Shown here: positions 8,559-62,110 of the stretch, piece after piece
Numbering within the stretch: position 1 is the stretch's first letter
How the letters are laid out: each line of letters begins with the position of its first letter
Notes under the pieces: model-generated
Seen by the model: the letters and a program-made list of their open reading frames with translations, nothing else
Told to the model about the DNA's origin: nothing
The model's database searches: none
Position numbers and translations under genes: made by a program
NCBI GenBank assembly: GCA_950295325.1
Contig: OX485806.1
Coordinates: forward strand, 49,161,169 to 49,225,168
Reading direction: 5' to 3'
Origin: Polytrichum commune
Lineage: Eukaryota > Streptophyta > Polytrichopsida > Polytrichales > Polytrichaceae
Length of the DNA: 64,000 nt

Positions 8559-8593
8559 CAGGGTTGTCTATTGTGTCGTGACAGAGGCTAATC

Positions 8594-34002: not shown

Positions 34003-34012
34003 CTATATAAGG
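34003..34012 (+). promoter_or_regulatory. TATA box in the LTR
   Basis: CTATATAAGG lies about 800 bp into the LTR, followed about 35 bp on by CTATACCTCATTTTC. It fits a U3/R promoter. Confidence 0.55.
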
Positions 34013-38689: not shown

Positions 38690-41600
38690 ACTGATGTTTC
38701 CTCCTAATGGCCAGATTTTGATTGAAATGATTTGAGGCATGTATGTTTAAGTGTATGTTAGATATGTTCTCGGTTTCGACCTTCTTGTCTATGGCGTGGT
38801 AGGACCCTCTCGGATCAGAGAGGGTCAAGCAGGAGAGCTTTGGAGGGCCAGATTTCGATTGAAATGATTTGAGGCATGACTGGTTAAATGTATGTTTGAT
38901 ATGTATTCTGTTTCGGCATTGTTGTGAATGGGCTGGTGAGGGACCCTCTCGGATCCGAGAGGGTCCAGGAGAAGGGCTTTGAAGGCCAGATTTTGATTCA
39001 AATATTTTGAGGCATGTACGTTTTGGTGTATATCTCATATGTTTTTGGTTTCGGCATAGTTATGTATGCAATTGGGTAGAACCCTCTCGGATCCGAGAAG
39101 GTCAAGGAGAAGGGCTTTGGAGGGCCAGATTCCGATTGGAATGATTTGAGGCATGAATGTTTAAGTGTATGTTTGATATGTTTTCGGTTTCGGCCTTGTT
39201 GTGTATGGGTAGGGGTGGGACCCTCTCGGATCTGAGAGGGTCAAGGAGTAGGGCTATGAATGGCCAGATTTTGATTGAAATGATTTGAGGCATGTATGTT
39301 TAGGTGTATGTTTGCTATGTTTTATGTGTCGGCCTAGATAAGTATGGGCTGGGGTAGGATCCTCTCGGATCCGAGAGGGTCAAGGACTAGGCTTTGAAGG
39401 GCCACATTCCGATTGATATGATTTGACGCATGACTGTTTAAGTGTATGTTTGATATGTTTTATGTTTCGGCATTGTTGTGGATGGGCACGGGTTGGACCC
39501 TCTCGGATCCGAGAGGGTCATCAGGTAGTGCTTTGAAGGGCCAGATTTTGATTGAAATGATTTGAGGCATGTATGTTGAAGTTTATGTTTCATATGTTTT
39601 CTGTTTTGGCCTTGTTGTGGATGGGCTGGGGTAGGACCCTCTCGGATCCGAGAGGGTCAAGGAATTGGGCTATGAATGGCCATATTTTGATTGAAATGAT
39701 ATGAGGCATGGATGTTGAAGTGTATGTTTCATATGTTTTCTGTTCCGGCATTGTTGTGAATGGGCTAGGGTAGGACCCTCTCGGATCCGAGAGGGTCATC
39801 AGGTAGTGCTTTGAAGGGCCAGATTTTGATTGAAATGATTTGAGGCATGTATGTTGAAGTTTATGTTTCATATGTTTTCTGTTTCGGCCTTGTTATGGAT
39901 GGGCTGGGGTAGGACCTTCTCGGATCCGAGAGGGTCAAGGAGTTGGGCTATGAATGGCCAGATTTTGATTGAAATGATATGAGGCATGGATGTTAGATAT
40001 CTTCTCGGTTTCGGCCTTGTTGTGTATTGGCAGGGGTCGGACCCTCTCGGATCCGAGAGGGTCATCAAGTAGTGCTTTGAAGGGCCATATTTTGATTGAA
40101 ATGATTTGAGGCATGTATGTTTAAGTGTATGTTTGATATATTTTCTGTGTCAGCCTAGTTATGGATGGGCTAGGGGAGGACCCTCTCGGATCCGAGAGGG
40201 TCAAGGAGTAGTGCTATAAATGGCAAGATTTTGATAGAAATGATTTGAAGCATATATGTATAAGTGTATGCTTGATATGTTTTTGGTTTCGGCCTTGTTG
40301 TGTATGGGCTGTGGTAGGACCCTCTCGGATCGGAGAGGGTCAAGGACTAGGGCTTTGAAGGGCCAGATTTCGATTGAAATTATATGAGGCATGTATGTTG
40401 AAGTGTATGTTTGCTATGTTTTATGTGTCGGCCTAGCAATGTATGGCCAGGGGTAGGACCCTTTCGGATCCGAGAGGGTCAAGGAGTAGTGCTATGAAGG
40501 GCCAGATTTTGATTGAAATGAATTGAGGCATGTACTATGTTGAAGTGTATGTTTGATATATTTTCTGTTTTGGCGTTGTTGTGATTGGGTGGGGTAGGAC
40601 CGTCCGGATCCGAGAAGGTCAAGGACTAGGGCAGTGAACATGTATGTTTAAGTGTATGTTTGATATGTTTTATGTGTCGTCCTAGAAAGGTATGGGCAGG
40701 GGTAGGACCCTCTCGGATCCGAGAGGGTCATGGACTAGTGCTTTGAAGGGCCAGATTTCGATTGAAATTATAGGAGGCATGTATGTTGAAGTTTATGTTT
40801 GATATGTTTTTGGTTTCGGCCTTGTTGTGTATGGGCAGGGGTGGGACCCTCTCTGATCCGAGAGGGTCAAGGACTAGGGCTTTGAAGGGCCTGATTTCGA
40901 TTGAAATTATATGAGGCATGTATGTTGAAGTGTATGTTTGCTATGTTTTATGTGTCGGCCTAGAAATGTATGGGCAGGGGTAGGACCCTTTCGGATCCGA
41001 GAGGGTCATGGAGTAGTGCTATGAAGGGCCAGATTTTGATTGAAATGATTTGAGGCATGTATGTTGAAGTGTATGCTTGATATGTTTTTGGTTTTGGCCT
41101 TGTTGTGTATGGGCTGGGGTAAGACCCTCTCGGATCCGAGAGGGTCAAGGAGTACTGCAACGAATGGCAAGATTTTGATAGAGATGATTTGAGGCATGTA
41201 TGTTTAAGTGTATGTTTGATATGTTTTATGTGTCGTCCTAGAAATGTATGGGCAGGGGTAGGACCCTCTTGGATCCGAGAGGGTCATGGACTAGTGCTTT
41301 GAAGGGCCAGATTTCGATTGGAATTATAGGAGGCATGTATGTTGAAGTTTATGTTTGATATGTTTTCGGTTTCGGCCTTGTTGTTTATGGGCAGGGGTGG
41401 GACCCTCTCTGATCCGAGAGGGTCAAGGACTAGGGCTTTGAAGGGCCAGATTTCGATTGAAATTATATGAGGCATGTATGTTGAAGTGTATGTTTTTTAT
41501 GTTTTATGTGTCGGCCTAGAAATGTATGGGCAGGGGTAGGACCCTTTCGGATCTGAGAGGGTCAAGGAGTAGTGCTATGAAGGGCCAGATTTTGATTGAA

Positions 41601-42170
41601 ATGATTTGAGGCATGTATGTTGAAGTGTATGCTTGATATGTTTTTGGTTTTGGCCTTGTTGTGTATGGGCTGGGGTAGGACCCTCTCGGATCCGAGAGGG
41701 TCCTCAGGTAGTGCTTTGAAGGGCCAGATTTTGATTGAAATGATTTGAGGCATGTATGTTTAAGTGTATGTTTGATATGGTTTATGTGTCGTCCTAGAAA
41801 TGTATGGGCTTGGGTAGGACCCTCTCGGATCCAAGAGGGTCATGGACTAGGGCTTTGAAGGGCCATATTCCGATTGAAATGATTTGAGGCATGACTGTTT
41901 AAGTGTATGTTTTATATGTTTTATATGTCGGACTAGAAATATATGGGCTGGGATAAGACCCTCTCGGATCCGAGAGGGTCCTCAGGTAGGTCTTTGAAGG
42001 GCCAGATTTTGATTAAAATGATTTGAGGCAGGTATGTTTAAGTGTATGTTAGATATCTTCTCGGTTTCGGCCTTGTTGTGTATGGCTGGGGTAGGACCCT
42101 CTCGGATCCGAGAGGGTCATCCGGTAGTGCTATGAAGTGCCAGATTTGGAATCAAATGATATGAATGATG
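38690..42170. repeat. 139-bp palindromic satellite, intron 1 array (~25 units)
   Basis: Palindrome starts (GGACCC) fall at 38802, 38941, 39079, 39218, 39357, 39495, 39634, 39773, 39912, 40039, 40178, 40317 and so on to 42094, nearly all steps being 138-140 bp. Each unit has a 24-26-bp palindrome (arm GGACCCTCTCGGA and its complement). It is followed by 'ggccagattttgattgaaatgatttgaggcatgtatgtt' variants (quoted in parts: GGCCAGATTTTGATTG, GATTTGAGGCATGTATG) and 'tttcggcctt'. Open frames across the array are satellite artefacts. A related imperfect palindrome also occurs at 37,875. Confidence 0.95.
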
Positions 42171-44257
42171 TATGAAATGACATTTGGATCACATTATGAC
42201 TTCAATGTTCTCTTGCATTTGTGTAGGAATCACAATCCATGGATCTTATTCTATCGGTGGATCCCTCTGTGGATGACCATAATGTTCAATTGGACGTTCC
42301 TCTAGTATGATTATAAGCATGTGCTTCCCTCCTTGAGTTTTTCGTCGCATCCCATACGTGGCCTCGCTTTCATTGTTATTCAATATTTTTCGCATTACCT
42401 AATGTTTTTATGGTTGCCCGTGTAGAATGATGCACTGGTTGCAACCGACTATTTGCGTCCTCTTGATGAGTCCATCCCAGAGGAGACTGAGATCTTGATT
42501 CGGAGGTCACAAAAAGAAGACTCTAATGTTGTCATTAACCGGGTTTGAATGAAACCTTTTCATAAGTTGCGTTTCTCTATCCCTTTGTGCCGCTTGCGAT
42601 GTCTTCCACTTGTTCGTCCCATCAACGAGGTTGATGTCGCTCGGTTGGAAAATGAGTTCGTCATGGGCTACCGTGACGGTGACCGAGCCTTGTATGTCTC
42701 TCCCTACAACAACCTCAATGAGGTACTCCATGTCTCCGATGACATCCACAATTCTTGGAGTTCATTATGTCAAGAGGCCAATGAGGAATTTGACGCCATG
42801 CTCCAAAATGACCCTGACCTTGAACACCTTTCTAGAAAGATGTTCTACGTGTGGGAAGGGAACCACCGTCTGTCGGCTTGGTGGAGGCACATTAATAAAC
42901 ATCATTTGCTGGATAAAGATTGGCATATCTCTGTTCACTGTATTGTCGTGGATCCAAGGAATTCCACCGCCGTCTTCTTGAATGCCATGAATGACATCAA
43001 TTGGTAAGTTTACTTTTCTTTCCCTTATTTTTTTGCCTTTTCCGGTTTCTTTTTATGTTTCACTTTTATTTGGACCCTCATTACTTCGTCTTTTAGGTCC
43101 ATGGAGCACGATCATGTTAAGGACAACCTCCCTGCCAAATTGCTTCGCATTCGTACATTTGGAAAAATGAAGCTTGAGGATTTCAAGGACCTCATTTCGG
43201 TTGACGACTACAAGATGTGCGAGGCTAAGATGGAGAAGACTCCTACTTGGTATCCCCTCACATTGGATGTCTTCGTCAAGTTCTTGTACAAGGTAATATT
43301 TCTTCTTACTCTAGTTTTTCCTTTCCTCATGTTTTGTGCATTAATCCTTACCCACATTTCTGTTTGTTTTAGAGAGAGATCTCGAATTCGGCGGATACTG
43401 CTGCACAGTTATACCATGAGTCCACTCCCGAGGCTCTTAGATCTGCTACTGGGATTTGGGATGCTATGACAAAAGCCCAGGATAGATTGATCAAAAGTAT
43501 TCGATCTCGGAGCTTTGAGAAGTTCATCTCAATCGCCCATAAGGACAACGGCGATGACTTCTTCCAAGAGGTACTCCCTGGACCTCTTCAATTTTTGTTT
43601 CCCTTTGCCTTCATGTTTTTGTGCTTTTGCTTTATGTATATTCCCTTACATTGCACTATGCATTTTTTCAGATTGACCGTCATTTCTCTACCTTCGTCGT
43701 CCCGGATATGACTATTGAGAAACTGCAAAAGGTGGCAACTACATATGTAGATGCTTCCTTTAAGGCTAGATGGCTTCGGTGGTGGAAACCAAAAACAAGT
43801 TCCTGTCTTCTCTTCCTCTTCGCGAGAAAGCCCTCGATGACTGGCTTCACAAAGCTTCTTTTTGGGCACAGGTGCTCCCATACCTTATACTTTCTGGATT
43901 GTGATTTTGGGTTGTAATGTTGAAATATATTGCATTATGTGTGGGTTACTTTGTGTTTAGTTAGGCCACATTTCTGACTTCATGTTTTTCTCATCTTAGT
44001 TGGAGAAAAGGGTTGAGGGTGAGATCGCCTCATTTGAAAATGAACTCACCATCGACATCGACTGGGTTTCTACTGAAGATCTTTTGCAACCTGCTCATTT
44101 TGTCGAACATTGGAGGCTCATTTTGTGGGACAAGGCTTTTCGAGTGTATTTTGATGACAAGGGAGACTTGAAGTTCACCAAAGGACTCGATCTCATGGAG
44201 TTCGAGGAAGGTCCCATAGCTATCAAGCGCGTTGCTTACCGGTATTCATTTTTGTTT

Positions 44258-45595
44258 AATATATTTTCTGTTTCGGACTAGTTATGGATGGGCTAAGGAA
44301 GGACCCTCTCGGATCCGAGAGGGTCAAGAAGTAGTGCTATGAATGGAAAGATTTTGATTGAAATGATTTGAGGCATGTATGTTTAAGTGTATCTTAGATA
44401 TGTTCTCGGTGTCGGCCTTGTTGTGTATGGCTGGGTAGGACCCTCTCGGATCCGAGAGGGTCATGGACTAGGGCTCTGAAGGGCCATATTCCGATTAAAA
44501 TGATATGAGGCATGACTGTTTAAGTGTATGTTTGATATATTTTCTGTTTCGGCATTGTTGTGAATGGGCTGGTGTAGGACCCTCTCGGATCTGAGAGGGT
44601 CAAGGAGTAGGGCTTTCAATGGCCAGATTTTGATTGAAATGATTTGAGGCATGTATGATAGATATCTTCTCGGTCTCGGCCTTGTTGTGTATGGGCAGGG
44701 GTGGGACCTTCTCGGATCCGAGAGGGTCATCAGGTAGTGCTTTGAAGGGTCCTATTTTGATTGAAATGATTTGAGGCATGTATGTTTAGGTGTATGTTTG
44801 ATATATTTTCTGTTTCGGCATTGTTGTGAATGGGCAGGGGTAGGACCCTCTCGGATCCGAGAGGGTCAAGGAGTAATGCTATGAAGGGCCAAATTTTGAT
44901 TGAAATGATTTGAGGCATGTATGTTTAAGTTTATGCTTGATATGTTTTCGGTTTTGGCATTGTTAGGAATGGGCTAGAGTAGGACCCTCTCGGATCCGAG
45001 AGGGTCAAGGAGTAGGGCTTTGAATGGCCAGATTTTGATTGAAATGATATGAGGCATGTATGTTAGATATCTTGTTGGTCTCGGCCTTGTTGTGTATGGG
45101 CAGGGGTAGGACCCTCTCGGATCCGAGAGGGTCAAGGAGTAGTGCTATGAAGGGCCAGATTTTGATTGAAATGATTTGAGGCATGTATGTTGAAGTGTAT
45201 GTTTGATATATTTTCTGTTTCGGCGTTGTTGTGATTGGGCTGGGGTAGGACCCTCTCAGATCTGAGAGGGTCAAGGAGTAGGGCTTTCAATGGCCAGATT
45301 TTGATTGAAATGATTTGAGGCATGTATGATAGATATCTTCTCGGTCTCGGCCTTGTTGTGTATGGGCAGGGGTGGGACCCTCTCGGATCCGAGAGAGTCA
45401 AGGAGTAGTGCTATGAAGGGCCAAATTTTGATTGAAATGATTTGAGGCATGTATGCTGAAGTGTATGTTTGATATATTTTCTATTTCGGCCTAGTTATGG
45501 ATGGGCTAGGGGAGAACCCTCTCGGATCCGAGAGGGTCAAGGAGTAGTGCTATAAATGGCGAGATTTGGATAGAAATGATTTGAGGCATGTAAGA
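44258..45595. repeat. 139-bp palindromic satellite, intron 6 array (10 units)
   Basis: Palindromes start at about 44301, 44438, 44577, 44704, 44843, 44981, 45108, 45247, 45376 and 45512. The array fills an intron (44,242-45,653) that would otherwise be of the ~100-bp size of the small introns in this gene (80-128 bp). It begins about 16 bp after the splice donor and ends about 60 bp before the acceptor. Confidence 0.95.
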
Positions 45596-47879
45596 AATTA
45601 TCTTCTTTTGTTTTCATTTCCAATTCTTTGTTCTCATGTTTTCTAATGTGTAGGTGCATTCACCGTGAGCTTGTCGTGAAGAATACTCTTCATTTTTCGT
45701 CCTTGCCTACATTCTTTGATGATTGGATCGATGACACCTCAAAGCTTTGTGTGTACACTCCCATGCAACTTGTAAAATTCCCACGGGTGCATTTGGTGGC
45801 TGGTGGTTGGTACTTGGATTGCTCTCGTGGATTCGTTCCCGACGTAAAAGAAACCCCCTCTACGAAAGCCTCGCTTCCTCTGCCCTGAGGTAATTGAATT
45901 GGAGGAAGAGCCGGAAGAAGATGAGAATCCCCCTCCTCCCATCATTGACAAGGAGGTTGCACCGGTGAAGGCCAAGGCCAAAGGCAAGAAAGTGGCCTCC
46001 AGTCAAGTCTCCACCCGCTCTTACACAAAGGCCTCCGTTCTGGGCACCGCAGCTCCAGCTACCACGGTTGTGAGAAGACCAATGGCAACTCCTTCTGCCC
46101 TTTCTCAGGACCATGTTCCGTCCCATAGCGGTGTCACCATTCCATCCGTGCCGCGAAAGGGGAAGGCTATTGCTCCGGATACCTCCGCAACTTCTTCGGA
46201 GAAGTCCTCGTCTCTTTTTTTGATAGAGAATGTTGACATGGGGGACCTCATAGAGGATCTCATGCGATCTAAAGTTCCCCCTCTCGCTTACCGCCGCATC
46301 CAAGAATTCCTCACTAAGGTACGTAAAACATTATCTTGTTTACCCGTTCTTTTATTTTAATTCAACACTTGTTTTGTTATATTTTTCCTTGGATTTTTTC
46401 TTTCCAGGTTGGAGCGGGTCGTACTCGTCCTAATACCAAGGCTAAGGTGCACACAAGGCTTGATCTACTCTTTGCAGATGTGTCTAAGAACCTTCGTGTA
46501 CCGGACATCTCCTCATCATCGTTGGATGTTCTCCAATGGAACAAGCGTTCTTCCTCTTACTTTGAGGTTCTGTTTGCCTTTGCAAACGCCAACCTCCATG
46601 ACGACGGCGTTCTTGTCTTTCCACATGCCACTGATCCTGACGTGTCTAGATCCATACATGACTGGGCACATACAGAGGACTTCTACGTTGCCGAAGACTA
46701 GTTCGGCATGAATGACCTCGACCTTCAATCGCCTACTAATCCATCGGAGTTGGTAATTCTTTTCTTCCCTCATCGTCTTGTATTCTTGTTTTTTTTCCCT
46801 TGCATTTTTGTATTCCTAATTCAAATTTTTTTTCATGTTTTCCAGACTCGCAAGTTCTTTATCAAGGTTCTCGTGCGTAATGACTCTTTTTTTAATGTCC
46901 GGACCTCGAACTTCGAAAACCTGGCTTACAATCTCAAGAGAGATGGTTGGCTCAATAGCTTCGCCGATTCGAAGAACCAATCGCTGAGGGAAGATGGCGT
47001 GCCTTGGAGAGGTGCTCGTGAAAAGGGCCCCGAGTTTTACTTCATCATTTTCTCCGCTCTCACAGACAAGGACGACATTATCATGAATTGGCAATGTGGC
47101 CTTGGTTGGTTTTTCTTCTCCTTGTTTCTCATGACTTTGTTTTGCTTTGTTTTGCTTTCTTTTTTTATTGTTACATTCTCCATTCATTACCTTATGCTCA
47201 CATTTTCGGATTTCGTTCTTCTAGGAGGTTCCGTCATTGCATGTCGATCTATTCAACGCCATATTGTGGCGCTTCAGTCGGATATCGATATCTTCAAGTC
47301 CATCCTCCTACCAATGCGTGAGACTGACCAAGAACACACTTCAGAGCGTGCTGCCCCACAACGAGGATCGGTTTTTGCTCCTCCTCCCCGGAAGATGGCG
47401 AAGCGCAATTTCGATTTGCTGTGTGCGTAAGTTCGTTCTTGGCTTCTAACTTGCTTTGTTCGATTTTTGTCTTCTCCATTCCGAATGTTTGGCTTGTGCT
47501 AATTTTTTTGTTGTCTCTTTCTATATTTTCAGAGTCCATATTGAAAGCCCGATTCGTGTCCTTAATGCGGACATGTTTTCAACTCCTTCGACGACATTTG
47601 AGCTCCCTTCTTATGCTGCTGACATTGCCTATGTTTTGGCGGAAGCACCGTCCTCACCTTCTAGTCGCACCCGCCCTTTCAACAAATTAGTTTTGGATTT
47701 TCTAGACATAGAGGCCGACCAGGGCGAGGAAAGTGATAGACATGGTAGTCCAAGTTCTTGACTACGCCTCGTACGTTTGAAACCTACATCACCTATGTAT
47801 TCTCTATGTTCAAGTGTTTTATAATTTCATTCCCTGAATTTCCATGACTCTTGTTCTCACCACATGGTTCGGCCTAACT

Positions 47880-49790
47880 GTGTATAATGGCCACATCTTC
47901 ATTGAAATGATTTGAGGCATGTATGTTTGAGTGTATGTTTCATATGTATGGGATTCGGTAGGACCCTCTCGGATCCGAGTGGGTCATCGAGTATTACTTT
48001 GAAGAGCCAGATTTTGATAAAAATGTTTTAAGGCATATATGATTAAGTGTATATTTCATATGTTTTCGGTTTCGGCCTAGTTATGTATGGCTTAGGTCGG
48101 ACCCTCTCGGATCCGAGAGGGTCATCTATTAGGACTATGAAGGGCCAGATTTTTATTCAAATATTTTCAGGCATGTATGGAAAAATATATATTTCTTGTG
48201 TTTTCTATTTCGGCCAAGTTGTGTATGTGCTAGGGTAGGACCCTCTCGGATCCGAGAGGGTCATCTAGTGGGACTATATAGTACCATATTTTGATTCAAA
48301 TATTTTGAGGCATGTATGTAAAAGTATATATTTTTTGTGTTTTCTGTTTTGGCCAAGTTGTGTATGTGCAAGGGTAGGACCCTCTCGGATCCGAGAGGGT
48401 CATCTAGTGGGACTATATAGTGCCATATTTTGATTCAAATATTTTGAGGCATGTATGTAAAAGTATATATTTCTTGTGTTTTCTGTTTCGGCCAAGTTGT
48501 GTACGTGCTAGGGTAGGACCCTCTCGGATCCGAGAGGGTCATCCAGTGGGACTATATAGTGCCATATTTTGATTCTAATATTTTGAGGCATGTATGTAAA
48601 AATATGTATTTCTTGTGCTTTTTGTTTCGGCCAAGTTGTGTATGTGCTAGGGTAGGACCCTCTCGGATCCGAGAGGGTCATCCAGTGGGACTATATAGTG
48701 CCATATTTTGATTCAAATATTTTGAGGCATGTATGTAAAAATATATATTTCTTGTGTTTTCTGTTTCGGCCTAGTTGTGTATGTGCTAGGGTAGGACCCT
48801 CTCGGATCCAAGAGGGTCATCCAGTGGGACTATATAGTGCCATATTTTGATTCAAATATTTTGAGGCATGTATGTAAAAATATATGTTTCTTGTGTTTTC
48901 TGTTTCGGCCAAGTTGTGTATGTGCTAGGGTAGGACCCTCTCGGATCCGAGAGGGTGATCCAGTGGGACTATATAGTACCATATTTTGATTCAAATATTT
49001 TGAGGCATGTATGTAAAAGTATATATTTCTTGTGTTTTCTGTTTCGGCCTAGTTGTATATGTGCTAGGGTAGGACCCTGTCATATCCGAGAGGGTCATCG
49101 AGTATTACTTTGAAGGGCCAGATTTTCATTTACATATCTTGAGGCATGTAAGTTTATGTATATATTTCATATGTTTTCTGTTTCGGCATTTTATTTATGG
49201 GCTGGGGTAGGACCCTCTCGGATCCGAGAGGGTCATCGACTGGGACTATGAAGTGCCAGATTTTGATTCAAATATTTTGAGGCATTTATGTAATGGTATA
49301 TATTTCTTGTGTTTTCTGTTTTTGCCAAGTTGTGTATGTGCTAGGGTAGGACCCTCTCAGATCTGAGAGAGTCATCTTTTAGGACTATGAAGGGCCAGAT
49401 TTTGATTCAAATATTTTGAGGCATGTATGTAAAAGTATATATTTCTTGTGTTTTCTGTTTCGGCCTAGTTGTATATGGGCTAGGGTAGGACCCTGTCGTA
49501 TCCGAGAGGGTCATCGAGTATTACTTTGAAGGGCCAGATTTTCATTTACATATCTTGAGGCATGTAAGTTTATGTATATAATTCATATGATTTCTGTTTC
49601 GGCATTTTGTTTATGGGTTGGGGTAGGACCCTCTCGGATCCGAGAGGGTCATCGATTGGGACTATGAAGGGCCAGATTTTGATTCAAATATTTTGAGGCA
49701 TCTATGTAATAGTATATATTTCATATGTTTTCTGTTTAGGCCTAGTTGTGTATGGGCTGGGTGGGACCCTCTCGTTTGGTCTATGTGTGT
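47880..49790. repeat. 139-bp palindromic satellite, 3' flank array (~14 units)
   Basis: Palindromes at about 47962, 48099, 48238, 48377, 48516, 48655, 48794, 48933, 49072, 49209, 49348, 49487, 49626 and 49764. Units here form a distinct subfamily ('gtgggactatatagtgccatattttg', in parts GTGGGACTATATAGTGCC and CAAATATTTTGAGGC) but keep the same palindrome. Two units (49,072 and 49,487) share a mutated left arm and appear to be a segmental duplication. Confidence 0.95.
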
Positions 49791-50340
49791 GCACTAGTTT
49801 GGTGGTTAGTGTCGGGTAGGACAACTTGGGGTTCACGGGTTCAACATTTTGTTTTCTTTTTTGAATTTTTCATGTTATGGTGTTGGACTAGTTAGGGACC
49901 CTCTCGGTTCCGAGAGGGTCCATGGGTTGGGGGGTTGATCATGATTTTATGCATGTGGTATTATAGCCGTAATGCTATATATTGCATCCAGGTCATTATG
50001 AGGTGTATTACGTAGGATCCCCTAATTAAGTTAAGGCTATACATGTAGGATGTGTGGTTATGTGGATGGTTCCAACTACATTGTTGGTAGGATCAACTAT
50101 TTTGTATCTTGGCTAGAATTAGCCACTCTTGCAACCGAGAGGGTCTTAGGCTAGGAATGTAGGACCAGATTATCCAATTTCGTTTTCAAAGCTTTCATTT
50201 GTGGATAGTTTCAATTACTTGGTGGTTACTAGGTTAAACTATTTTGTATTTTGGATGGAATTAGACCCTCTCGGAACCGAGAGGGTCTTAGGCTATTAAT
50301 GTAGGCCAAGATTATGGGCATTATGATAAATATTGCATCC
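49790..50340. repeat. Dispersed palindrome variants (GGTTCC and GGAACC centres)
   Basis: GACCCTCTCGGTTCCGAGAG at about 49,898, a half-decayed copy near 50,129 and GACCCTCTCGGAACCGAGAG near 50,265 lie outside the 139-bp spacing. They sit in partly duplicated ~180-bp DNA with 'aggctaggaatgtagg'-type blocks. Confidence 0.75.
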
Positions 50341-50749
50341 CCCCTTCATTATATGGTGTACTAGCTAGGATCTCCTACTCAAGTTAGGATTTTCCATAGT
50401 AATGTAATGCACTCAAATCAAATCAAACATCATAGCAATGATGGTCACCTCCCCTTCCACCCTTTTTACAATGGAGGACTTCCAAGCACATGCCCTTCAC
50501 AACAAATGCAACTTTTCATTGCATTCTCCTACTCCATTCTGGTGAGTGTTCGGACTCTCCCCCTTTGAATTTTTGTTCATGTTTTTTTAGGCCAGATTTG
50601 TGGGTTTAATGCATAAGATGTAATTCTATGTTTCGGTTTTCCCTCTTGGACCCGAAAAGGTGTATGGTATGCAAGATTGTTGGGTTTCATGCATAAGATG
50701 GAGTTTTGTGTTTGAATTTTTTGTGGCTACTTTGGACTTCAATGTTGAA

Positions 50750-52125
50750 TGCGTGTTATTGTATATAGGTTGGACTTGTGTGTGTGTGTATGTGGTTGGA
50801 TTGGACACTCTTCCTTCAAGTATTTAGGACCAGATTTTGTACTTCATTGTTGAATGCTTGTTTGTGTATATAGGTTGGACTTTTGTGTATGTGTATGTGG
50901 CTGGATTGGACCCTCTTCCTTCAAGTACTTAGGACCAGATTTGGAATTCATTATTGAATGCTTGTTTGTGTATATAGGTTGGACTTGTGTGTATATTTAT
51001 GTGGCTGGAATGGACCCTCTTCCTTCAAGTATTTAGGACCAGATTTGGAATTCAATGTTGAATGTTTGTTTGTGTATATAGATTGGACTTTTGTGTATGT
51101 GTATGTGGCTGGATTGGACCCTCTTCATTCAAGTACTTAGGACTAGATTTGGAATTCAATGTTGAATGCGTGTTAGTGTATATAGGTTGGACTTGTGTGT
51201 ATGTGTATGTGGATGGATTGGACACTCTTCCTTCAAGTATTTAGGACCAGATTTTGTACTTCATTGTTGAATGCTTGTTTGTGTATATAGGTTGGACTTT
51301 TGTGTATGTGTATGTGGCTGGATTGGACCCTCTTCATTCAAGTACTTAGGACCAGATTTTGGAATTCATTGTTGAATGCTTTATTGTGTATATAGGTAAG
51401 ACTAGTGTGTATGTTTATGTGGCTGGATTGGACCCTCTTCCTTCAAGTACTTAGGACCAGATTTGGAATTCATTGTTGAATGCTTGTTTGTGTATATAGG
51501 TTGGACTTGTGTGTATGTTTATGTGGATGGATTGGACCCTCTTCCTTCAAGTACTTAGGACCAGATTTTGGAATTCATTATTGAATGTTTGTTTGTGTAT
51601 ATAGGTTGGACTTTTGTGTATGTGTATGTGGCTGGATTGGACCCTCTTCATTCAAGTATTTAGGACCAGATTTGGAATTCATTGTTGAATGCATGTTTGT
51701 GTATATAGGTTGGACTTGTGTGTATGTTTATGTGGCTGGATTGGACCCTCTTCTTTCAAGTATTTAGGACCAGATTTGGAATTCAATGTTGAATGCTTGT
51801 TTGTGTATATAGGTTGGACTTTTGTGTATGTGTATGTGGCTGGAATGGACCCTCTTCATTCAAGTACTTAGGATCATATTTGGAATTCATTGTTGAATGC
51901 TTGTTTGTGTATATAGGTTGGACTTGTCTGTATGTTTATGTGGCTGGAATGGACCCTCTTCCTTCAATTACTTAGGACCAGATTTTGGAATTCATTGTTG
52001 AATGCTTGTTTGTGTATATAGGTAAGACTAGTTTGTATGTGTATGTGGCTGGATTGGACCCTCTTCCTTCAAGTATTTAGGACCAGATTTTGGATTTCAT
52101 TTTTGAAGTCCAAAATGTGTATATA
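50750..52125. repeat. 104-bp satellite (~13 units), palindrome-less relative
   Basis: The unit is 104 bp, for example consecutive starts at 50,854, 50,958 and 51,062, then 51,585, 51,689 and 51,793. It contains GGACCCTCTTCCTTCAAGTA, then 'cttaggaccagattttgga', 'gtttgtgtatataggttgga' and 'gtatgtggctgga'. The GGACCCTCT...CCAGATTTTG order matches the 139-bp satellite, but the right palindrome arm is gone. Open frames starting M(L/F)VCVYRLD are repeat artefacts. Confidence 0.92.
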
Positions 52126-52245
52126 GGTGAAACTAGTTTGTATGTGTATGTGGTTGGATTGGACTAGAGGGTTTTCCTTGAATTATTTAGGACCAGATTT
52201 TGGAAGTGTATGGGTTCCCATTTGCTATATGAGTCGGCCCCTTAC

Positions 52246-53221
52246 TGTCGCGCACCTCTCCATGAGGAGTGCCCGAAACACTATGGGCACAAGGGGGACC
52301 CCGGAGTGACACCCGGGACTTGTAGCGCCGTTGGTGAGAGGGCCCAAGTGATCCTAGTGTGGGTGAGGGGCCCGGGCGTTGGGAACGCCTCCCACCCACG
52401 GAGACTAGGAGGCATGAGGGTAAAGCCAAGAGCTATGCGTAGCTCATGGCGTGGTGATTCTAGAATGCTCAAGAACACCTCAATCGGAGGTGTGAGCTAG
52501 GAGTTATGGCCATTTGAGTGGGGCGCTGTCCCGGGACAGCGCCCTGGTACAGCAGTGCCTGGGAGTGATTCCCGGGACTGCCAAGGTTCAAACAGGCATA
52601 ACTTCCTCAAGACTTGCCCGAATGGGGCAAATGAGGAGTCCATCGGCATCTACGTGAAGCGTAGATGAAGATGGAGTGGTTAGTTGTTATGAGCGGACAT
52701 CATACAAGGAAGTTATGATGGTCTGAAGCTGCTGGGGGGGTTCTAGGCCCAGCAGCTAAAGGAAAATGTCCACTTGGCCCCAACTCTTGGTAGAGAGACA
52801 AGAGGTTGGTTGACGGTGGGGTAGGGGCCCCGCGTAAAGTCCTAGAGGCTTATATGGGTGAGGTGGTGTGGCCTCACCCACCCGAGGCCGAACGGCATGG
52901 TCTCCATGGGCTTTTGGCCCATTGTGAGGCCATAGTTGCCTAGTATGGTTCGGGTTGTTGTAGTGTTGCTCCGGCAATGCGATGATCAACATGGGATTGG
53001 ACTTCCATGGATGGAAGTCCACATCTAGGAATGGGTTACCGATTAAGGGGTGAGTCCCGAAAGTAAAGTAGGAGGGTTGGTTCCCCTCCTATGAGCTATA
53101 AGGTCCGGGGTAGGAGGAGCTAACCATTAGCATTGCGGAATGCGAAGGGTTAGCACTCGTAACCTTTGCTAGAAACAAAAATTGGCAAGATTATTAAGGG
53201 GGGCTAGCAAGGGTTGCGACA
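52246..53221 (-). mobile_element. Solo LTR, family A, with target duplication
   Basis: 976 bp. Read on plus it starts TGTCGCGCACC and ends TTGCGACA, the reverse of the copy at 25,232. The 5 bp on each side are CTTAC (52,241-52,245 and 53,222-53,226), a clean target duplication. It contains a perfect 24-bp palindrome (52,521-52,544; arm GGGCGCTGTCCC) and a hairpin with CGGCATCTACG arms. A ~37-bp host segment (AAGTGTATGGGTTCCCATTT...) occurs both at 52,205 and 53,270, flanking the insertion. Confidence 0.9.
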
Positions 53222-53462
53222 CTTACACCAGAATTTGGAAGTTTTTTTTTTGGATCATTTGTGTATGCTAAGTGTATGGGTTCCCATTTGCTATATGATT
53301 TGGCCCCTCACATATGATTATGGCTAACTCTCGGCCAAATTCCAGATTTCATTTATGTTGAGTTCATGTTTGGCTATTGGAGGAATCAAGCCCTCTCACC
53401 ACATTCGGTATCATGTGGGTAGGTAAGTTGATTCGGCCCTTACCCTACATTTTGAAGTTTAT

Positions 53463-54020
53463 TTGTTATTTATGTTGGATTATGTAGTTAGGCATTTGTC
53501 TCAGTTCCGAGAGGCTGCAAGTTTCGACCTCTTACACCAAATTTTGATTTTATTTTATTATGAATGTGTGTCCTTGTGTGACTCATCAGGTAACGCAAGA
53601 ACGCGCGCATTCCACGTCATCGTGCCACACGTATTGCATCTGGACCTAGATGTACAGTTGTCCGTATTAGTTCCCAACTTAGTGGTGGGTGCTACAAAGG
53701 ATTATGCGAGCCGGGAGAGGGCCTTTGACACCAAACGCCGTTTGTTGGTAATCGGCAAATTGAGGCTATGTAGCAAAGCATGGAAAAGGATTGTGGATAG
53801 GAGTGTGGAGTACAATGCTCTTCGTTTGGCGGCGCATGAGTACTCCATGGGTCCACATGCTCTCCCACAGTTGTGTTTGCCATGCGAACAGAACCTCGTC
53901 AAACTTTTTAAATTGAATTTCATGTTGTTCTCACAAAGCCGGCACCTAAACCCAAAAATTTCCAAGAGGATTTTGAGGTTGAACTTGGGGGATTTGTCTT
54001 TGCGTTCTTTGGCTAGCTAA
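53463..54020 (+). CDS. Possible F-box-like protein fragment
   Basis: 185-codon frame. The middle and end (from about residue 85) read like a plant F-box-type helical motif: RLLVIGKLRLCSKAWKRIVD, then SVEYNALRLAAHEYSM, where the 'R-L-x-S-K-A-W-x-x-I-V' pattern is typical. The first ~40 codons overlap DNA that resembles the preceding non-coding repeat. A CAG|GTAACGC acceptor-like site near 53,590 may mark the real exon start. No leucine-rich or kelch repeats follow. The family call is tentative. The frame ends before a possible poly(A) region (AATAAAATATTTTG, about 54,148). Confidence 0.35.
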   Translation: MLFMLDYVVRHLSQFREAASFDLLHQILILFYYECVSLCDSSGNARTRAFHVIVPHVLHLDLDVQLSVLVPNLVVGATKDYASRERAFDTKRRLLVIGKLRLCSKAWKRIVDRSVEYNALRLAAHEYSMGPHALPQLCLPCEQNLVKLFKLNFMLFSQSRHLNPKISKRILRLNLGDLSLRSLAS

Positions 54021-55547
54021 GGGATGAATTGGAAGGCTGTTATGGTGCGGTGGAGATCTATGGCATGTTCTAGAGTAGAGTATATAGCTACTTGAACTGA
54101 CTACCCATTTTTGTAAGTCTTGAGGTTGGCTACATTTTGTTGGCCAATAAAATATTTTGTTTATGGTATTTTGATTTCAATTGGTGACGTCAGCCCTAAT
54201 TTAATATGAAACATATACTATAAGATGTTTGATAACAAATGCAATCTTCCACGCCTATAGGATCCGTTGGTTTTTCGAACAATTCTGGATTATTATGTCC
54301 ACGGGAATGGGGTGCCTTTCCAAATATAAAATTCAAACTATCTCTAATTCCACGGAAAAAGGCACTGCTTCTCCTAAAATTACCCAACAAATCTCCGCTC
54401 TCTGCTCTCCGCTCTCTGCTCTACGCTCACACTACTAAGTTTCCCGGTCATATGCTCTATCCTGGATATACAATTCTCATAGAATTCCTTTGTTCCACCA
54501 TATTGTGTAGCCTACATTGGATACATTGTTGATCAAACAAAACTTGATGAGGCCAAAATTGGTGTTCTTTAAGACATATGCCTCGGCACTAGCTTGGATC
54601 CAAGCATGTTGCCAATCTTTGGAATTTTTTTGGCCCATGTAACATTTGAAGATAGATGTTTGTCACCCCCACTCTTCACCTTACTAAGCTTCATGTATAC
54701 ACCCCCCGCCAACTTGTTAATGCTCTTCAACCACATCACATTTTGCCATATCAAGAATCCACAATAATTGGCATGGGCTTGACACTCTTAACCATTTCCT
54801 TAATATCTCTTCCCTCCAAGGAATTGTTGGTGGTTGCCTTGGGCAACCATTTGGCCATAGAACCCCAACATCCAAAAACTTCCCGCATTTTCACTCAAAC
54901 ATTGAAAATTTGTTTCTAAGGTGGAAAATGTTATGAAAAAATTACTTGAAATTGAAAACCCCATTTTGGACCTTATTCTACACCCAAAAACCAAATCCTA
55001 TGAGATTTCTATCCCCAATAGATTTAGATCTATCCATTGCTAATCAAATGGAATTTTCCATGTCTTTCTTGATTCATTAGCCATTTTTTGTTTCCAAAAA
55101 TCTTAAAATTTCCACTTGATGCCATGGGGCACTCTACAGGATCTTTATGCACCAAGTGCAATGGATGGTATTTGTTTAAAGGTTATTTACATCCAACGCA
55201 TGATTTAAAAAATCCTTATAATTATTTAAATCTCTAAAATAACCTTATTTGTTTGCACTAAGGGAAGCTATCTTATGAGCAGTGAGCGGTAACACATGAA
55301 CAATGAATCCAAATTTAGTAAAGACACACGGGTTTAGGGTACATAACCAAAATTTTGACAAATTAATTGCATATTTTCAATTGTAAATTGCCAGTATTTT
55401 AAATGAAGTACAGGTAAAAGGGCCCTATTGCCATGGATAATTTAAAACACTTTCAATCCATTGCTAATTTTTATTAAAATAATCCAAACCAATACATGTC
55501 ATTTATTGACATCCTTATACATGTAGTTACAACCAACACTTGCACAA
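54021..55547. other. Intergenic DNA, no gene recognised
   Basis: Short frames only. It contains a CCGCTCTCTGCTCTCCGCTC block (54,397-54,432), complementary to one near 30,199, and a TATGAGCAGTGAGCGGTAA block near 55,277, complementary to one near 62,838. These may be ends of unrecognised transposons, but no target duplications match. Confidence 0.5.
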
Positions 55548-57180
55548 CTACTCACATTCTACAACACCAGCAAGTTCAAGTAGGTGTGTAACCTCATTGT
55601 ACGTATATGTAGGTGCCAACACATATTTCTTCTTAGTGCCATTTACACAATGCTTGATGTCATCAGGGCAAAACCAAAATTCATACTCCACATTGTTGGT
55701 AGAACGAAATTCCTTCTTGAGCCCTTTGTATGTTGGTGCAAGTGTGTCATGTTTGCTACTCCCGACTTTGGCATTGCACATAGTCCCTGTAATGGCTTGT
55801 AATACCCAACATCGTTTAACTGAGTTGGGTGGTAATCTTGCAATGTGCCAATTGGAAATGAAACATTCAGTCTCTAAGATAGTTGTAATATGAACCACAT
55901 CATGCTCTACAAAAGTCAACGATTCATCTATGCATTGGCGAGTTGTCCGGCTGTTAGGACGAGGAATTGAATAATTCACTTTGTGCGGGTCGATGCAAGT
56001 TGAATTTTTGTTTGGTGGATCCAAATAACTCGGACCCTTCCCATGCACAATCTCTGGTTTTGGCGCCTTCTGTCCCTAGGTAAAACTTCATAGCATCTGC
56101 CAACATTTTTTGATCCCCATACTTAGCAGCTGCTTTGAGTTTCAAGGACGCAAAATCCGGGCCTTTACCATCTGATCCCCCTTTCAACCATGCCCAATAA
56201 TTTGCAATTTGCATGAAAGTACAAATCATGTCATCCACTGTTGTTTCATATAAACAAATCATCTTGTTGCCGGATTGTTGGAGCCATTTGTTGTATACAG
56301 TTTTTGTAAAGTTGCATTTTGGCATTTTTGCATGTTCTTTGATTGTCATATCCTATGAACCATACACAAGTATAGGGATAGGAAAAATGAATTATAAATG
56401 TGTTAGAATAAAAATAAATCAGCAAAAATTCAATGACATTGAATAATGTAGATTATTATACACTTACAAGTAACATATGACCACCCCATTGTCTATAACG
56501 GAAATGCCAAAATTCCAACCACTTTGAAAGGCCGAGGATGCCTTCCTCTGTGGTAGCTCCGGATGACAACCACCAAGAACAAATGACATAGTACTTAGTC
56601 TCAGCATCGCCCATTGTTTTTGCATCTTTGTAATCCTTGCAAAGTTGTTTGTGTTGAAATTGCAATGATGGTTTGATATACGTCTGTGTCACCTTATCCA
56701 AACTTGCATACTAATAAAAAAACATACACGCTCATGTGCGACCATGGGCAAAGTTTGATCACCATCACTGTAAATCATCCTCACCGCATTTCGATTAGCT
56801 TGAGCACTGAACACCATGTTCGAAATTTTGGGAAAATTCCATGATTTTGGGAAAATACAGTTTAGGTTGAGTCGACCTAAAATGTACCCACTGGGTACAT
56901 TTTAGGTCGACTCCACCTAAACTGTCATCAAATTGGGAGACTGGAAATCTCCCAAAATTTCGAATATGGTGTTACTGTCTGCCATGAACCCTTTGAAAAT
57001 TACCTTTGAAACATCATTCTCTGTCATTACAACATTCAAAATTTTCCAAAAGAGACTTTGTGTTGTACCATCCTCAGATTGTATGTCACCACACGCAATA
57101 GTCAACACTTTACAAAATCGACTATCGTACACATGACAAACAATTGTTGTCCAATCTTTCACACATTTAATATGTGTGGG
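55548..57180 (-). pseudogene. MULE-like transposase, interrupted by a foldback element
   Basis: Read on minus from about 57,180: KDWTTIVCHVYDSRFCKVLT, then FWKILNVVMTEND and FKGFMADS. The frame breaks at a 164-bp foldback insertion and resumes as SAQANRNAVRMIYSDGDQTL. Next come KPSLQFQHKQLCKDYKDA, ICSWWLSSGATTEEGI and WLEFWHFRYRQWGGHMLL, a probable intron with GTAAGT donor near 56,467, then MTIKEHAKMPKCNFTKTVY and AGKTR-type helical segments. A shift near 56,045 leads to the C-terminal frame ending LAPTYTYNEVTHLLELAGVV. This block order is that of a plant DDE (MULE-like) transposase group with a SWIM C-terminus. A classic SWIM CxC is not visible here. The same C-terminal motif occurs in the fragment at 31.4 kb. 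Clearly non-functional. Confidence 0.65.
56810..56973. mobile_element. 164-bp foldback element (MITE-like)
   Basis: The whole element is an imperfect palindrome with ~80-bp arms. The outer arms are AACACCAT(G/A)TTCGAAATTT and complement; the inner arms GTCGACCTAAAATGTACCC and complement are perfect and meet at the centre. The flanking ACTG (56,806-56,809 and 56,974-56,977) is a 4-bp duplication. Removing the element plus one ACTG rejoins the transposase frame as ADS-AQAN, so the insertion is exact. Confidence 0.85.
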
Positions 57181-58153: not shown

Positions 58154-59220
58154 TTGATTTGCATAGGTTATAGCCAAGGTAACTCTTACAACAATCCGCA
58201 TCTGCAAGGCAATATCAATTTTTTTTTCATGACAGGCAAGTGCAAGGGTTCCAACCCAACCAACATGGAGGCAATGGACAACAACCTTCCCATGGAAACC
58301 AAGGCTACAACCATGATACCAACTGGAACCAATGATTCAATAGAGATGACCGTAACCTAAATTCTGGTCGTAACCAAAATAAAATTAGGGGTCAAGCCCG
58401 ACTGGGTCATCCTCATCAACCAAATTTCCAAAACGCTCGGTATGTCGACGTGAATTCCATGGACCCAATGGGCAATAGTGATCCAATCTTCCAGATAACA
58501 CTCGTTGTACTACACGAGCATAAGCCAATGGTCTTCTCTACTCTTCTTATGGGGTTGGAAAAAGAAACGGTAGATGCCGAAGTTATGACTAGAGCCCAAC
58601 GGTTAGTCAACCCCCCTATATAACACATGGTGGACCCCCTACTTTCTTGGATGGATCACCAAACTTTGTTCAATTGAACAAGGTCATTAACTCCGCCATT
58701 CAAGATGCCCTCAATGAACCCCTTCTTAACAAACCCTCTACTGAGGCAGTACCATTGGTAGAATCTGATGAAGATGAAGATGACGACGATTTGTACCGGT
58801 TTGTGGACATCTTAGAGAATAGATCAGATGGACCTTTGAAACCAAAACCTCCATATTCATCCCTTCTTCTAAACAAGACCAAGTGTGCACAAAAAAAAAC
58901 TTAAAAATGTAAGAAGAAGGGTGCGTGACTTTGACAAATAGGAGAAGGAAAAAAAATTGAAATTTTCTATCACAAAGCAATTATATAGGGCCAAAATGGA
59001 ACGACAAATGAGTAGGGTCACTTCATGTGACATCAAAGACACTGCACGCGTACTAGAATTTCCTGCAATAGAAAAAAATGAAAATGTTGAAATCGAGACG
59101 CAACATAACAAACAACCCTTCATTTTTGGAAATGATGATGATAAACGAGTGAGCAACACTACCAACGATATGTCTGACGTAGAATAAGAAAGAGAATGTA
59201 CTTCCATTTACAATGCACCG
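58154..59220 (+). other. Decayed coding-like region upstream of the paralogue
   Basis: Several short frames in changing phase. One is Q/N/G-rich (about 58,200-58,340, retroelement gag-like in composition), one acidic (ESDEDEDDDDLYRFVDI, 58,647-58,904) and one basic/acidic (58,957-59,187). A GTAAGT donor at 59,221 follows the last. Whether any is an upstream exon of the gene at 60.5 kb is unproven; none resembles exon 1 of the 37.5-kb gene. Confidence 0.35.
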
Positions 59221-59369: not shown

Positions 59370-60250
59370 AAAAAATTGTGAAATAGGGGTTTCGGTACGA
59401 AAACCCTATTCCACAATATTTTTTTCAAAAAATATACTTCTAAGTAAATAATTTTGTTGACATCATAGTCGGTGTCCTCATTTCTTTTCCAGGTTTATTC
59501 TTGAAAAACATTTGTGGAATAAGGGTTTCGGTACCCAAACCCTTATTCCACAACTTTTCTTCAAACAATATACTTCTCAGTAGATAATTTTATGTTGACG
59601 CCATAGCCGGTGTCTTCATTTTTTTCTTTTTTTATTCTTAAAAAAAAATTTGTGGAATAGGGGTTTCCGTACCGAAACCCCTATTTCACAACTTTCTTTC
59701 AAACAATATATTTCTCATTCAATAATATCATGTTGACACCATAGCCGGTGTCTTCATTTTTTTTCCATGTTCATTCTTGAAAGAGAATTGTCGTATAGGA
59801 ATTTCGGTACCGAAACCCCTATTCCAGAACTTTCTTTCAAAAAAACGTTTTGGTCCTTCACCAATTTATTATGACACTACAATGAATGTCTTCAATTTCT
59901 TCTATGCGTATTTCTTAAAATAATGTTGTATATTAGGAGTTTCGGGACCAAAATTCCTATTTCAGAACTTTTTTTCAAGTATTAAAATTTCTTCTTGACT
60001 AATTTAATGTCTATGTTACAACTGTGGCATTTTTTTTTGTATGGCTATTTCTTGAAAGTAAGTCACGAAATAGGGCTTTCGGTACTACTCCATAGTTTCT
60101 TTTAGAAGAAGTACTTCTAATTTGTCAATTTCAAGTACAGGGGTTAGCCATCTGCCTCATGTTTTACCATGTTTATTTCTAAAATAAAAGCTTTGGAATG
60201 GAGATTTCGGTGCCGAAACCCTTACTCTAAAATTTACTTGAAAATAAATA
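59370..60250. repeat. ~138-bp palindromic satellite, GGTACC type (7 units)
   Basis: Palindrome centres at about 59394, 59530, 59669, 59806, 59944, 60081 and 60209 give steps of 136, 139, 137, 138, 137 and 128 bp. The best arms are AATAGGGGTTTCGG and complement around GGTACC (about 59,650-59,690). Linkers share 'atacttctcagta(g)ataat', 'gccggtgtcttcattttttt' and 'ttattcttgaaa'. It does not resemble the GGATCC satellite in linker sequence, but the unit length and design are the same. Confidence 0.9.
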
Positions 60251-60463
60251 TTATCTTTATCAAACTATTTAGGTGTTTTCAAGTCTATATGTGTGTTTTG
60301 TATTATATCAAAATGTTGATGGTTGTGTCAATTATACAGTCATGTAGGTGGCCTTTATTCATTCTTTCATTGAACTTTAAGTGTCAAGTATATTTCATTT
60401 TATAGTTTAGTTTATTTATTTATTTGAAGTTACTTATAATGTACATTTGATGTTTTGTTGTAG

Positions 60464-62110
60464 AATGGATGATTATTTGTTGCATGATCTTTTTCACTTA
60501 TTATACGTTTTTCTTTGGTTGTTAATATGTATGATTACATTTTGGCAGACATCGACATTAAAGAAACATAAAAAAAAAAGTTACAATAAACAAATTTCAA
60601 CTATTAGACCAATTCTAGAATTTGATGTTCAGTTGTTGGAGAATGAATATTTCAATGGTTATAGGGAAGGTGATTGTGTTTTGTATGTTTCTATTGTCAA
60701 CGATCGTGGGGAGAATTTATGTGTAATAAATGACAAGTTGAGATCTTGTGATCCAATATGGCAACAAGTGAACGATGTTTTTGAGTAGTCACTTTCCCCA
60801 GATGAGGATTAGAAGGTTTTTAAAGATAAAATATTTTCAATATGGGAGGGTAATCACCAAGTTATAGCATGGAGACGGCACATAGATAAAGTTCATGTTG
60901 ATGAGAAAAATTAATATTATAGTGTGGATTGTATATGCCTTAATGCAATGGATGTGACTGGCATTCTCTTAGATGCCATGAATGACGTCAATAGGTTAAG
61001 CCTGAAGCCCATTGATTTCAATTTTTTTTGTCAAATGCATTGAAGATCAATCTTATATTTATAAATTTATTTTGTTGAATATCAGATCCACGGAAATTGA
61101 TCATGTGAGGATCAATTTGGTTTATAAAATCCATTGCATTTGGAGTTTTGGGACTTTGAAGCTACAAGAATTTAAATATATTTTGTCCCCTAACGATTAT
61201 GCTAAGTGCGAGAAGAAACGCCCATGGACTACATGATATTCTCTTACTGTAGACATTTTTTCAGCTTTCACCTACAATGTGAATCTTTAAAATCTGAATG
61301 TCTACATCAATTTTATGCTCTTACATTAAGTTCTTTTATTATTTTAAACTAAAAAATTTCAATGTTGTTTTCATCGTAATGTTGTAGCAGCATCAAAAGA
61401 GGCATATTATGAGGACAAAGACAACATTCTATTGGCCCAAAGATCTTCCAAGCTTGAATTGGAGGCTACAGCAAATGCGGTGAGATAAACAACCAAAGCA
61501 TATAGGTTAAAAGAATTTGATAAACTCCTTGCAATTGCGGATCCCGCAAATGGCATTGATTTTGTGAAAGAAATAAGTATTTGTATTATTTATTTGATTT
61601 TTGTGATATGTTTTGTTTCATTGTGTATTTTATATTTAAATTTATTTTAAGGTAAATGGGCATTGGAGTTCTAATCCTAAACCAAAAATGATCTTGGAGA
61701 AATTGCAAAAAATTACAACAACTCCGGTGAATGGCAAGTATAAAGTGAAATGGTTGAAGTGGTAGAATTCATCTCCGATGACACGCGAGGCTTTGCATTT
61801 CTTGCCTCCAAATTTTATAGACAATAACCTTGATTTATGGTTGGTGAAAACATCATTTTGGGCTCAGATTATATTATGAATTATAGTTGTAAATGCATTT
61901 ATGCTTATGAAAATATCATAATTAGCGTTTTTATTTGTTAAGATAGTTATTTGACATAACGTTTTATGTATGAATTCTAATTTTTAGTTGGAGGAAGGTG
62001 TCATCAATGAGTTTCATGACATTCTACCACAATTGGGTGATGTGGTTTAGAATAACGTCCTTTATGTGATTCATTGCCACCTCCTATTGTCCATAGTTTG
62101 CAATTAATTA
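60464..62110 (+). pseudogene. Decayed paralogue of the ParB/methyltransferase-like gene
   Basis: Exon order matches the 37.5-kb gene. An AG|A exon at 60,464 (MDDYLLHDLFHLL) is equivalent to the MDLILSVDPSVDDH exon. An exon from 60,549 has RPILEFDVQLLENEYFNGYR, with a TAG and then IWEGNHQVIAWRRHIDKVH and LLDAMNDVNR. The next (from about 61,086) has EIDHVRINLVYKIH and FGTLKLQEFKYILSPNDYAK. Then EFDKLLAIADPANGIDFVKE (61,389-61,575), KPKMILEKLQKITTT and KVKWLKW, stop, ...VKTSFWAQ (61,652-61,877), and LEEGVINEFHDILPQL (from 61,988), which ends at a stop. Stops interrupt at least five exons. No methyltransferase-like exons are recognisable downstream, though frames near 62,270-62,400 keep some coding feel. 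GNHR is conserved except R to Q (GNHQ). Confidence 0.75.

Follow-up and report, generated by a model that had tools for sequence, protein, structure and literature searches.

Gene and repeat content of the locus

The window, i.e., the whole 64,000-nucleotide stretch of Polytrichum commune DNA that was analysed (C4:49161169-49225168), holds two genes with ParB-like exons, gene A and gene B, both of which are accompanied by arrays of palindromic repeats (Table 1). Gene A is the cargo of a 24.3-kb DNA transposon, the A element. Both genes are pseudogenes that contain stop codons, and the range 59370-62110, in which an earlier note on this DNA had placed a palindromic satellite, takes in the decayed gene B as well as the array. 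An AACCCTA repeat and introns were also seen, which are plant-like features. A remnant of a hAT transposase lies at 10163-11719 on the plus strand (Dimer_Tnp_hAT, E 3.3e-10), and a non-palindromic 104-bp satellite with GGACCCTCTTCC was found at 50731-52164, within the A element and 3' of its gene.

Table 1. Features of the two loci in the window (positions are those of the window).
Feature	Position	Strand	Remarks
A element: transposon with short inverted ends and a 10-bp target duplication, GGTCATATGC	30183..54445	.	duplication at 30173-30182 and 54446-54455, by eye
Transposase of the A element, C-terminal part, CxC...CxH motif	31430..32035	-	
A array 1, CCCTCTCGGATCCGAGAGGG, 139 bp, intron 1 of gene A	38706..42174	.	
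First coding exons of gene A; EGNHR motif (ParB-like); stop codon at 42546	42239..43007	+	
A array 2, internal intron of gene A	44253..45592	.	
Methyltransferase-like exons of gene A with DPPY and FxGxG in degenerate form and one internal stop	46408..47430	+	methylase likeness via the L038 counterpart
A array 3, 3' of gene A	47886..49774	.	
Transposase remains, head-to-head with gene B	55803..57174	-	tblastn 33-48% identity, E 7e-44 and 3e-34
Gene B, conserved upstream exon, one internal stop, GTAAGT donor at its end	58996..59220	+	similar stretch in L035
B array, seven decayed units of the GGGTTTCGGTACCGAAACCC palindrome	59387..60221	.	period 128-138 bp, intron 1 of gene B
Pseudogenised ParB-like exon of gene B, carrying an EGNH motif and several stops	60464..60992	+	
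Gene B, middle exons, remains	61386..61850	+	by-eye comparison with L035

The seven palindromic units that had been reported from gene B proved to be real, and their spacings in the window are 136, 138, 138, 138, 137 and 128 bp. As read from the sequence, the array sits within an intron between the upstream exon, which is followed by its donor at 59221, and the exon that contains ATGGATGATTATTTG and opens after the AG at 60463. The palindrome has decayed in this copy: the seven units are identical to the 20-bp family consensus, GGGTTTCGGTACCGAAACCC, at 18, 19, 19, 18, 15, 12 and 17 of 20 positions, two of them are badly decayed, and the exact TTCGGTACCGAA was retained in only one unit, at 59803. 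In the better-kept B copies at the loci L035 and L036 the consensus is symmetric over about 30 bp per arm with few interruptions. At the other locus of the window, CCCTCTCGGATCCGAGAGGG recurs at 139 bp in all three arrays of gene A, as had been noted before, and the linkers of the A and B satellites differ, which agrees with the earlier description of them as unrelated.

Mobility and transposase of the elements

The A element and a pair of element copies, X (C4:4759106-4783105) and Y (C3:8681239-8705238, reversed), are mobile. X and Y share positions 2695-17330 of X (14.6 kb) as blocks of 5.4 and 8.4 kb with 99.1-99.2% identity, the array between the two blocks differs in length, and the flanks are different. 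Both of the elements with two recognisable ends are bordered by 10-bp target duplications (GGTCATATGC in A and CTCGGGTGGG in Y), and their ends have a common inverted stretch, TGTGAGCGTAGAGC..., inside differing tips; these features were read by eye. The ends of the B element were sought in the window and none were found. A repeat of about 1 kb occurs in the window at 4744-5368, 25232-26203 and 52245-53224, and several more copies are present in the flanks of X and Y. The X and Y elements lie in or beside copies of this repeat, perhaps because of an insertion preference. The left end of X was rejected as an element end because a nested 1-kb repeat cuts it, and the true left end is seen in Y and in the window.

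An open reading frame of 766 aa (L043:3909-6209), which lies on the strand opposite to the gene, has a D..D..C..H pattern that may be MULE-like. Its relatives were found in L036 (45% identity), L035 (39-42%) and the transposase remains beside gene B (33-48%). Near the C-terminal end of the A-element transposase there is a CNC...CKH stretch, for which Pfam gave no match and which may be SWIM-like, and the transposase models in Pfam and NCBIfam did not match the ORFs of the elements. Mutator-like transposons (MULEs) create target site duplications of 9-11 bp. The CxC...CxH motif and the 10-bp length of the duplication suggest that the elements of both loci are probably Mutator-like. Each element is proposed to carry the transposase gene on one strand and the second gene facing it head-to-head; judging by L035 and L036, the transposase remains and gene B of the window would be parts of the same element.

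Family size and occurrence of arrays

The gene family is very large, with hundreds of exon copies, and most of the branches that were examined own a palindrome array. The whole 407.8-Mb assembly of 64 contigs was searched. The A exon yielded 1240 first-look candidates; 150 of them were scored, and 150 matches were returned. The B exon, a divergent exon of L049 and the L054 exon yielded 919, 951 and 1279 candidates, respectively, with 150 scored for each; the match lists of the A and L054 exons overlap. Sixteen loci were read at 6-8 kb (L035-L042 and L047-L054). This sample was non-random and included several loci of one clade; GGTACC sites were the reason for including L035 and L036, and a repeat known from L025 was the reason for including L041. 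Palindromic arrays were present in 13 of the 16 loci, or in 10 of 13 when these three picked loci are left out.

The arrays of L035 and L036 were of the B type. The C palindrome, AGGCCTCGGATCCGAGGCCT, was found in L037, L038 and L049, mostly with units of 96-128 bp, and in L052 at 170 bp. Other arrays consisted of AGCCCTCGGATCCGAGGCCT in L050 and L051 (unit 128 bp), AGGCCTCGGGTCCGAGGCCT in L053 (118 bp), GCTCTCGGCTCCGAGAGG in L047 (85 bp) and ATCCCACGGATCCGTGGGAT in L054 (64 bp). The palindrome CCCTCTCGGTTCCGAGAGGG and its reverse complement were found in L041 at 149 bp and in L042 at 140 bp; the two loci share the motif in an orientation opposite to their genes, and the array of L042 lies 2.5-3.3 kb 3' of the exon start. 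A second palindrome, TGACATGTCA, is present in 17 copies in L041, where it lies in the linker of the 149-bp units. No intact palindromic array was found in the three remaining loci: L039 has a 75-bp satellite with one half-site, L040 has a 64-bp satellite without a palindrome, and L048 has scattered, unrelated palindromes and a 106-bp array without a palindrome. Family members that lack any palindromic array would have spoken against the pairing proposed in the earlier note, and with L039, L040 and L048 this is partly the case. Arrays are also placed in other introns and 3' of the gene. The proposal that the satellites share a unit length near that of one nucleosome was rejected because palindromic units across the family measure about 64, 85, 96, 118, 128, 137, 139, 149 and 170 bp.

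The association was further examined by a blind scan for at least three copies of any pair of 7-bp half-sites around a free centre, in which CGG was not required. It returned arrays in 11 of the 16 loci, every one with a half-site that ended in CGG; L037 and L038 gave ACGGGTG as well. L050 and L051 were missed owing to one asymmetric position, and the decayed B array of the window was not detected. Among the 30 loci of 3.4 kb that best matched the A exon, arrays were found in 17, all with CTCTCGG. The scan of 51.5 kb of control sequence gave three arrays, namely those of L001 and L003, two loci that had been selected through the GGTACC pattern, and one within or next to a 32-bp tandem repeat in the flank of Y; the scan of shuffled loci gave none in 320.

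Genome-wide association of satellite and gene

Across the genome, TTCGGTACCGAA occurs at 84 sites compared to 27 for the reversed control. Among the sites listed on C1-C3, 41 of 50 have a B-type exon (a B-exon match with E up to about 1e-16) no farther than about 3.1 kb away and nine do not; conversely, 13 of the 16 B-type loci on these contigs have at least one exact site within about 3.1 kb. Spaced pairs of this 12-mer were found 28 times, in 14 loci, and never in the reversed control, and therefore the B array is not a product of chance. The paired GGTACC arrays lie at most 1.3 kb from a B-type exon in 13 of 14 cases, on its 5' side in 13 of 13, and the exception is the array at C4:48319569, which has no listed B-type exon at that distance. 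Thus, the GGTACC satellite does not occur mainly away from these genes, an outcome that would have spoken against the pairing proposed in the earlier note.

Pairs of CTCTCGGAACCGAGAG (GGAACC/GGTTCC) numbered 175 and 308 by strand compared to 0 in the control, and four of the five clusters among those listed lie at or within 3 kb of A-exon matches, the one at C2:4.83M being the exception. Pairs of TCGGNNCCGA numbered 2436 compared to 28 in the control genome-wide, and those of the related GTCTCGGTACCGAGAC satellite 136 compared to 0. For just one of the five GTCTCGGTACCGAGAC clusters listed, at C1:468-472k, does a listed exon lie 8-11 kb away, an outcome that speaks against the association; as the exon lists cover 150 scored candidates per query, however, a missing neighbour weighs little. 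The satellite in the clusters at C1:468k, C1:57.30M, C3:3.56M, C3:23.83M and C3:42.92M, GTGTCTCGGTACCGAGACAC with units of 138-139 bp, has the same core, and several clusters contain units in both orientations.

Diversification of the palindrome

The palindromes vary by clade around the common core CGG-NN-CCG. Eleven consensus palindromes were compared, including GTGTCTCGGTACCGAGACAC, to which no gene could be assigned. The bases at positions 2-7 from the centre were complementary in all 11, those at each of positions 8, 9 and 10 in all but one, and the centre pair in seven. The arms differed from A by 26 two-sided and three one-sided changes, as counted from comparisons of consensus sequences that are not independent events; when L052 and L053, which repeat the arms of C, were left out, the counts were 18 and three. 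Arm type agrees with the phylogeny of the ParB-like exon (18 rows; strong support on six of 15 inner branches), in which the AGGCCT/AGCCCT, CTCT, GGGTTT and ATCCCA arms fall into separate groups, and the array-less L039, L040 and L048 fall among the CTCT group. This concordance could be explained by common descent within one element. In the arrays of A, B and C, the unit is best preserved in its palindrome, whereas in D, E, L047, L050, L052 and L053, i.e., in six of the 11 arrays, the palindrome is at most as well preserved as the remainder; the units were gathered via the palindrome, which somewhat favours its conservation. Of the TCGG-x-CCGA design that had been proposed as common to both loci, CGG-NN-CCG is shared across the family, but the arms differ by clade. 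That the palindrome is tied to the gene family and has diversified with it holds, as the arms follow the protein clades, and the idea of a pairing of protein and site is well supported by these sequence comparisons at the level of the family.

The second protein

The exon family carries a nearly invariant EGNHR (or DGNHR) motif, which in our view resembles the G-x-x-R motif of ParB/Srx proteins. When 11 exon members were scanned against PHROGs, phrog_1033, a phage ParB-like partition family, matched two (best E 0.13), one of them from L035, and a family of unknown function scored E 0.074 for one member; a piece of L049 matched phrog_1033 with E 0.037. Nothing relevant was found for the ParB-like exon in Pfam and the PDB, and the predicted fold of the exon in the window reached a pLDDT of 40. 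Of 64 stretches in viral contigs that fit a pattern for relatives, none was confirmed, and a tblastn search of phages gave a best E of 3. At L049 1390-1940, a second, divergent ParB-like exon (YDGNHR) lies beside a C-type gene, and the matches listed include some 50 close copies of it with an identity of at least 86%.

In the C-terminal exons of L038, one and the same stretch matched phrog_18293 (E 0.0017), phrog_3008 (E 0.013), the CcrM model in an NCBIfam search (E 0.0031), DpnA in the PDB (E 0.0081) and N6_N4_Mtase in Pfam (E 0.12). This stretch falls where permuted N6/N4 methylases have their SAM motif. The counterpart exons in the window, those of gene A, gave no methylase match. At the DPPY position, ADIPENL was read in L037 and L038, ADVSKNL in the window, ADVPENL in L041 and ADLPEGL in L036, and hence the DPPY-type catalytic motif of an active N6/N4 methyltransferase is absent from all five. 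Because DPPY is replaced and the FxGxG region altered, the methylase activity was probably lost. An active adenine methylase that marks GATC-like centres was set aside for the loss of DPPY and the variability of the two centre bases. Taken with their marginal scores, these matches suggest that the protein probably consists of a ParB-like part and a dead methylase. The ParB-like exon is under purifying selection: dN/dS was 0.10-0.18 in eight of the 10 pairs with a usable dS and 0.23 and 0.68 in the two closest pairs, and three of 13 pairs were saturated.

Proposed mechanism and alternative explanations

We propose that both loci belong to a large transposon family in which a second protein and its cognate palindromes keep the element active, an interpretation whose chances we consider to be evenly balanced. 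The second gene would encode a domain of ParB/sulfiredoxin type fused to what was once an adenine/cytosine-N4 DNA methyltransferase and is now degenerate, both identities being marginal, and the palindromic satellites would be arrays of its binding sites. Recognition would be by a symmetric dimer: the free centre and the symmetry of the arms could be accounted for by a dimeric protein that reads arm-CGG, a 2-bp spacer and CCG-arm. Such a protein could coat the non-coding DNA of its own element and keep that element active, most likely by excluding or removing silencing marks; anti-silencing is put forward as the most likely purpose because the closest precedent, VANC/VANDAL, acts in this way. 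The drift of the arms from clade to clade would then confine each protein to its own kind. A bolder version, which we offer tentatively and regard as somewhat unlikely, is that a eukaryotic transposon superfamily captured a prokaryote-type ParB-methylase that is now a catalytically dead, dimeric reader of palindromes, coats parS-like arrays and shields the element from silencing, with several and perhaps many more protein-site specificities in one genome.

Among the alternatives, the protein may be an accessory transposition factor that joins the element ends or regulates the transposase promoter with no involvement of silencing. In favour of such a factor, the arrays are internal to a mobile element, and in the copies of B and C type that were read (L035, L036, X and Y) the main array separates the two divergent genes. 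However, gene A also has arrays within an internal intron and beyond its 3' end, and the array of L042 is placed 3' of the exon start, so they are not specific to the ends, and the end sequences of A and Y are without such a palindrome, which makes this explanation unlikely. It is also conceivable that the satellites are passive, the palindrome having grown by slippage and gene conversion and hitchhiking with the gene in the element. Common descent alone would produce both the association and the concordance with the tree, L040 and L048 have tandem arrays that are not palindromic, and the palindrome is no better kept than the linker in six of 11 arrays. On the other hand, passive satellites would hardly be expected to change mostly symmetrically in their arms (26 versus three, or 18 versus three) with CGG-NN-CCG staying constant, to keep the palindrome best in the A, B and C arrays and to show a CGG half-site in all 11 matches of the blind scan, and we therefore judge this origin to be quite improbable.

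A parS-like system, in which a ParB-type protein loads on the palindromes and spreads and thereby serves segregation, clustering or retention, would account for the recurring weak match to phrog_1033, the clustered palindromic sites and the presumed likeness of EGNHR; the homology is marginal, though, and chromosomal transposons need no partition, which leaves such a role with little probability. The least probable explanation is that the palindromes act as intron RNA hairpins or as cruciforms, by which small RNAs are made or evaded or splicing is affected: the arrays are intronic in A and B and the palindromes are perfect enough to fold, but A array 3 is outside the introns, 3' of the gene, the constant CGG-NN-CCG with its free 2-bp centre is more readily explained by a protein dimer than by a stem, and the orientation of the motif opposite to the genes in L041 and L042 implies no fixed RNA sense.

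If the proposed binding and anti-silencing are correct, hundreds of copies of related DNA-binding proteins would form a natural series within one genome, with four or more types of site known to date and many copies of the presumed site close to each, and protein-DNA recognition and its drift could be read from sequence. It would also suggest that selfish anti-silencing as practised by VANC has more than one origin and was achieved here by an unrelated protein, and the series might yield new sequence-specific tools for plant epigenomes.

Comparison with known systems

The En/Spm transposon encodes TnpA, which has many copies of a short site in the element and regulates the transposase promoter or joins the ends. 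It differs from the system described here in that its sites are short, subterminal and not arranged as a palindromic satellite, and the protein is unrelated. Bacterial ParB-parS also relies on clustered palindromic sites, and the protein studied here is weakly ParB-like; the bacterial system, however, has a partition partner, whereas in the moss the sites lie in chromosomal transposons and the protein has no significant family match. Fusions of ParB and methyltransferase in phages and bacteria have a similar order, with a ParB-like N-terminal part followed by a permuted N6/N4 methylase-like C-terminal part, but in the family described here DPPY has become DIPE, DVSK, DVPE or DLPE, and introns interrupt the gene. 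Among the titles and abstract openings listed from the open-licence literature on ParB in connection with transposons, Mutator-like elements, bryophytes and satellites, none describes such a system. The DUF1985 and DUF287 domains, which are characteristic of VANC proteins, had no match in the exons that were scanned by Pfam (all but three middle exons).

In Arabidopsis, the VANC proteins act on VANDAL transposons via motifs that form tandem repeats, both intronic and in other non-coding stretches of the element, and these motifs differ between relatives (PMC5735166, PMC10398659). VANC proteins carry DUF1985 and DUF287, the motif of VANC21 has nine bases, YAGTATTAY, and VANDALs are non-TIR elements (PMC5735166, PMC10398659, PMC6446971). 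The present family differs in that its protein is ParB/methylase-like and its site is a 20-bp palindrome with CGG-NN-CCG, and the anti-silencing function was demonstrated in Arabidopsis, whereas in our case it is proposed from sequence. The likeness lies in an element, Mutator-like in the case of VANDAL and probably so here, that carries a transposase and a second protein, whose putative targets are tandem-repeat motifs in non-coding parts that have diverged between related elements.
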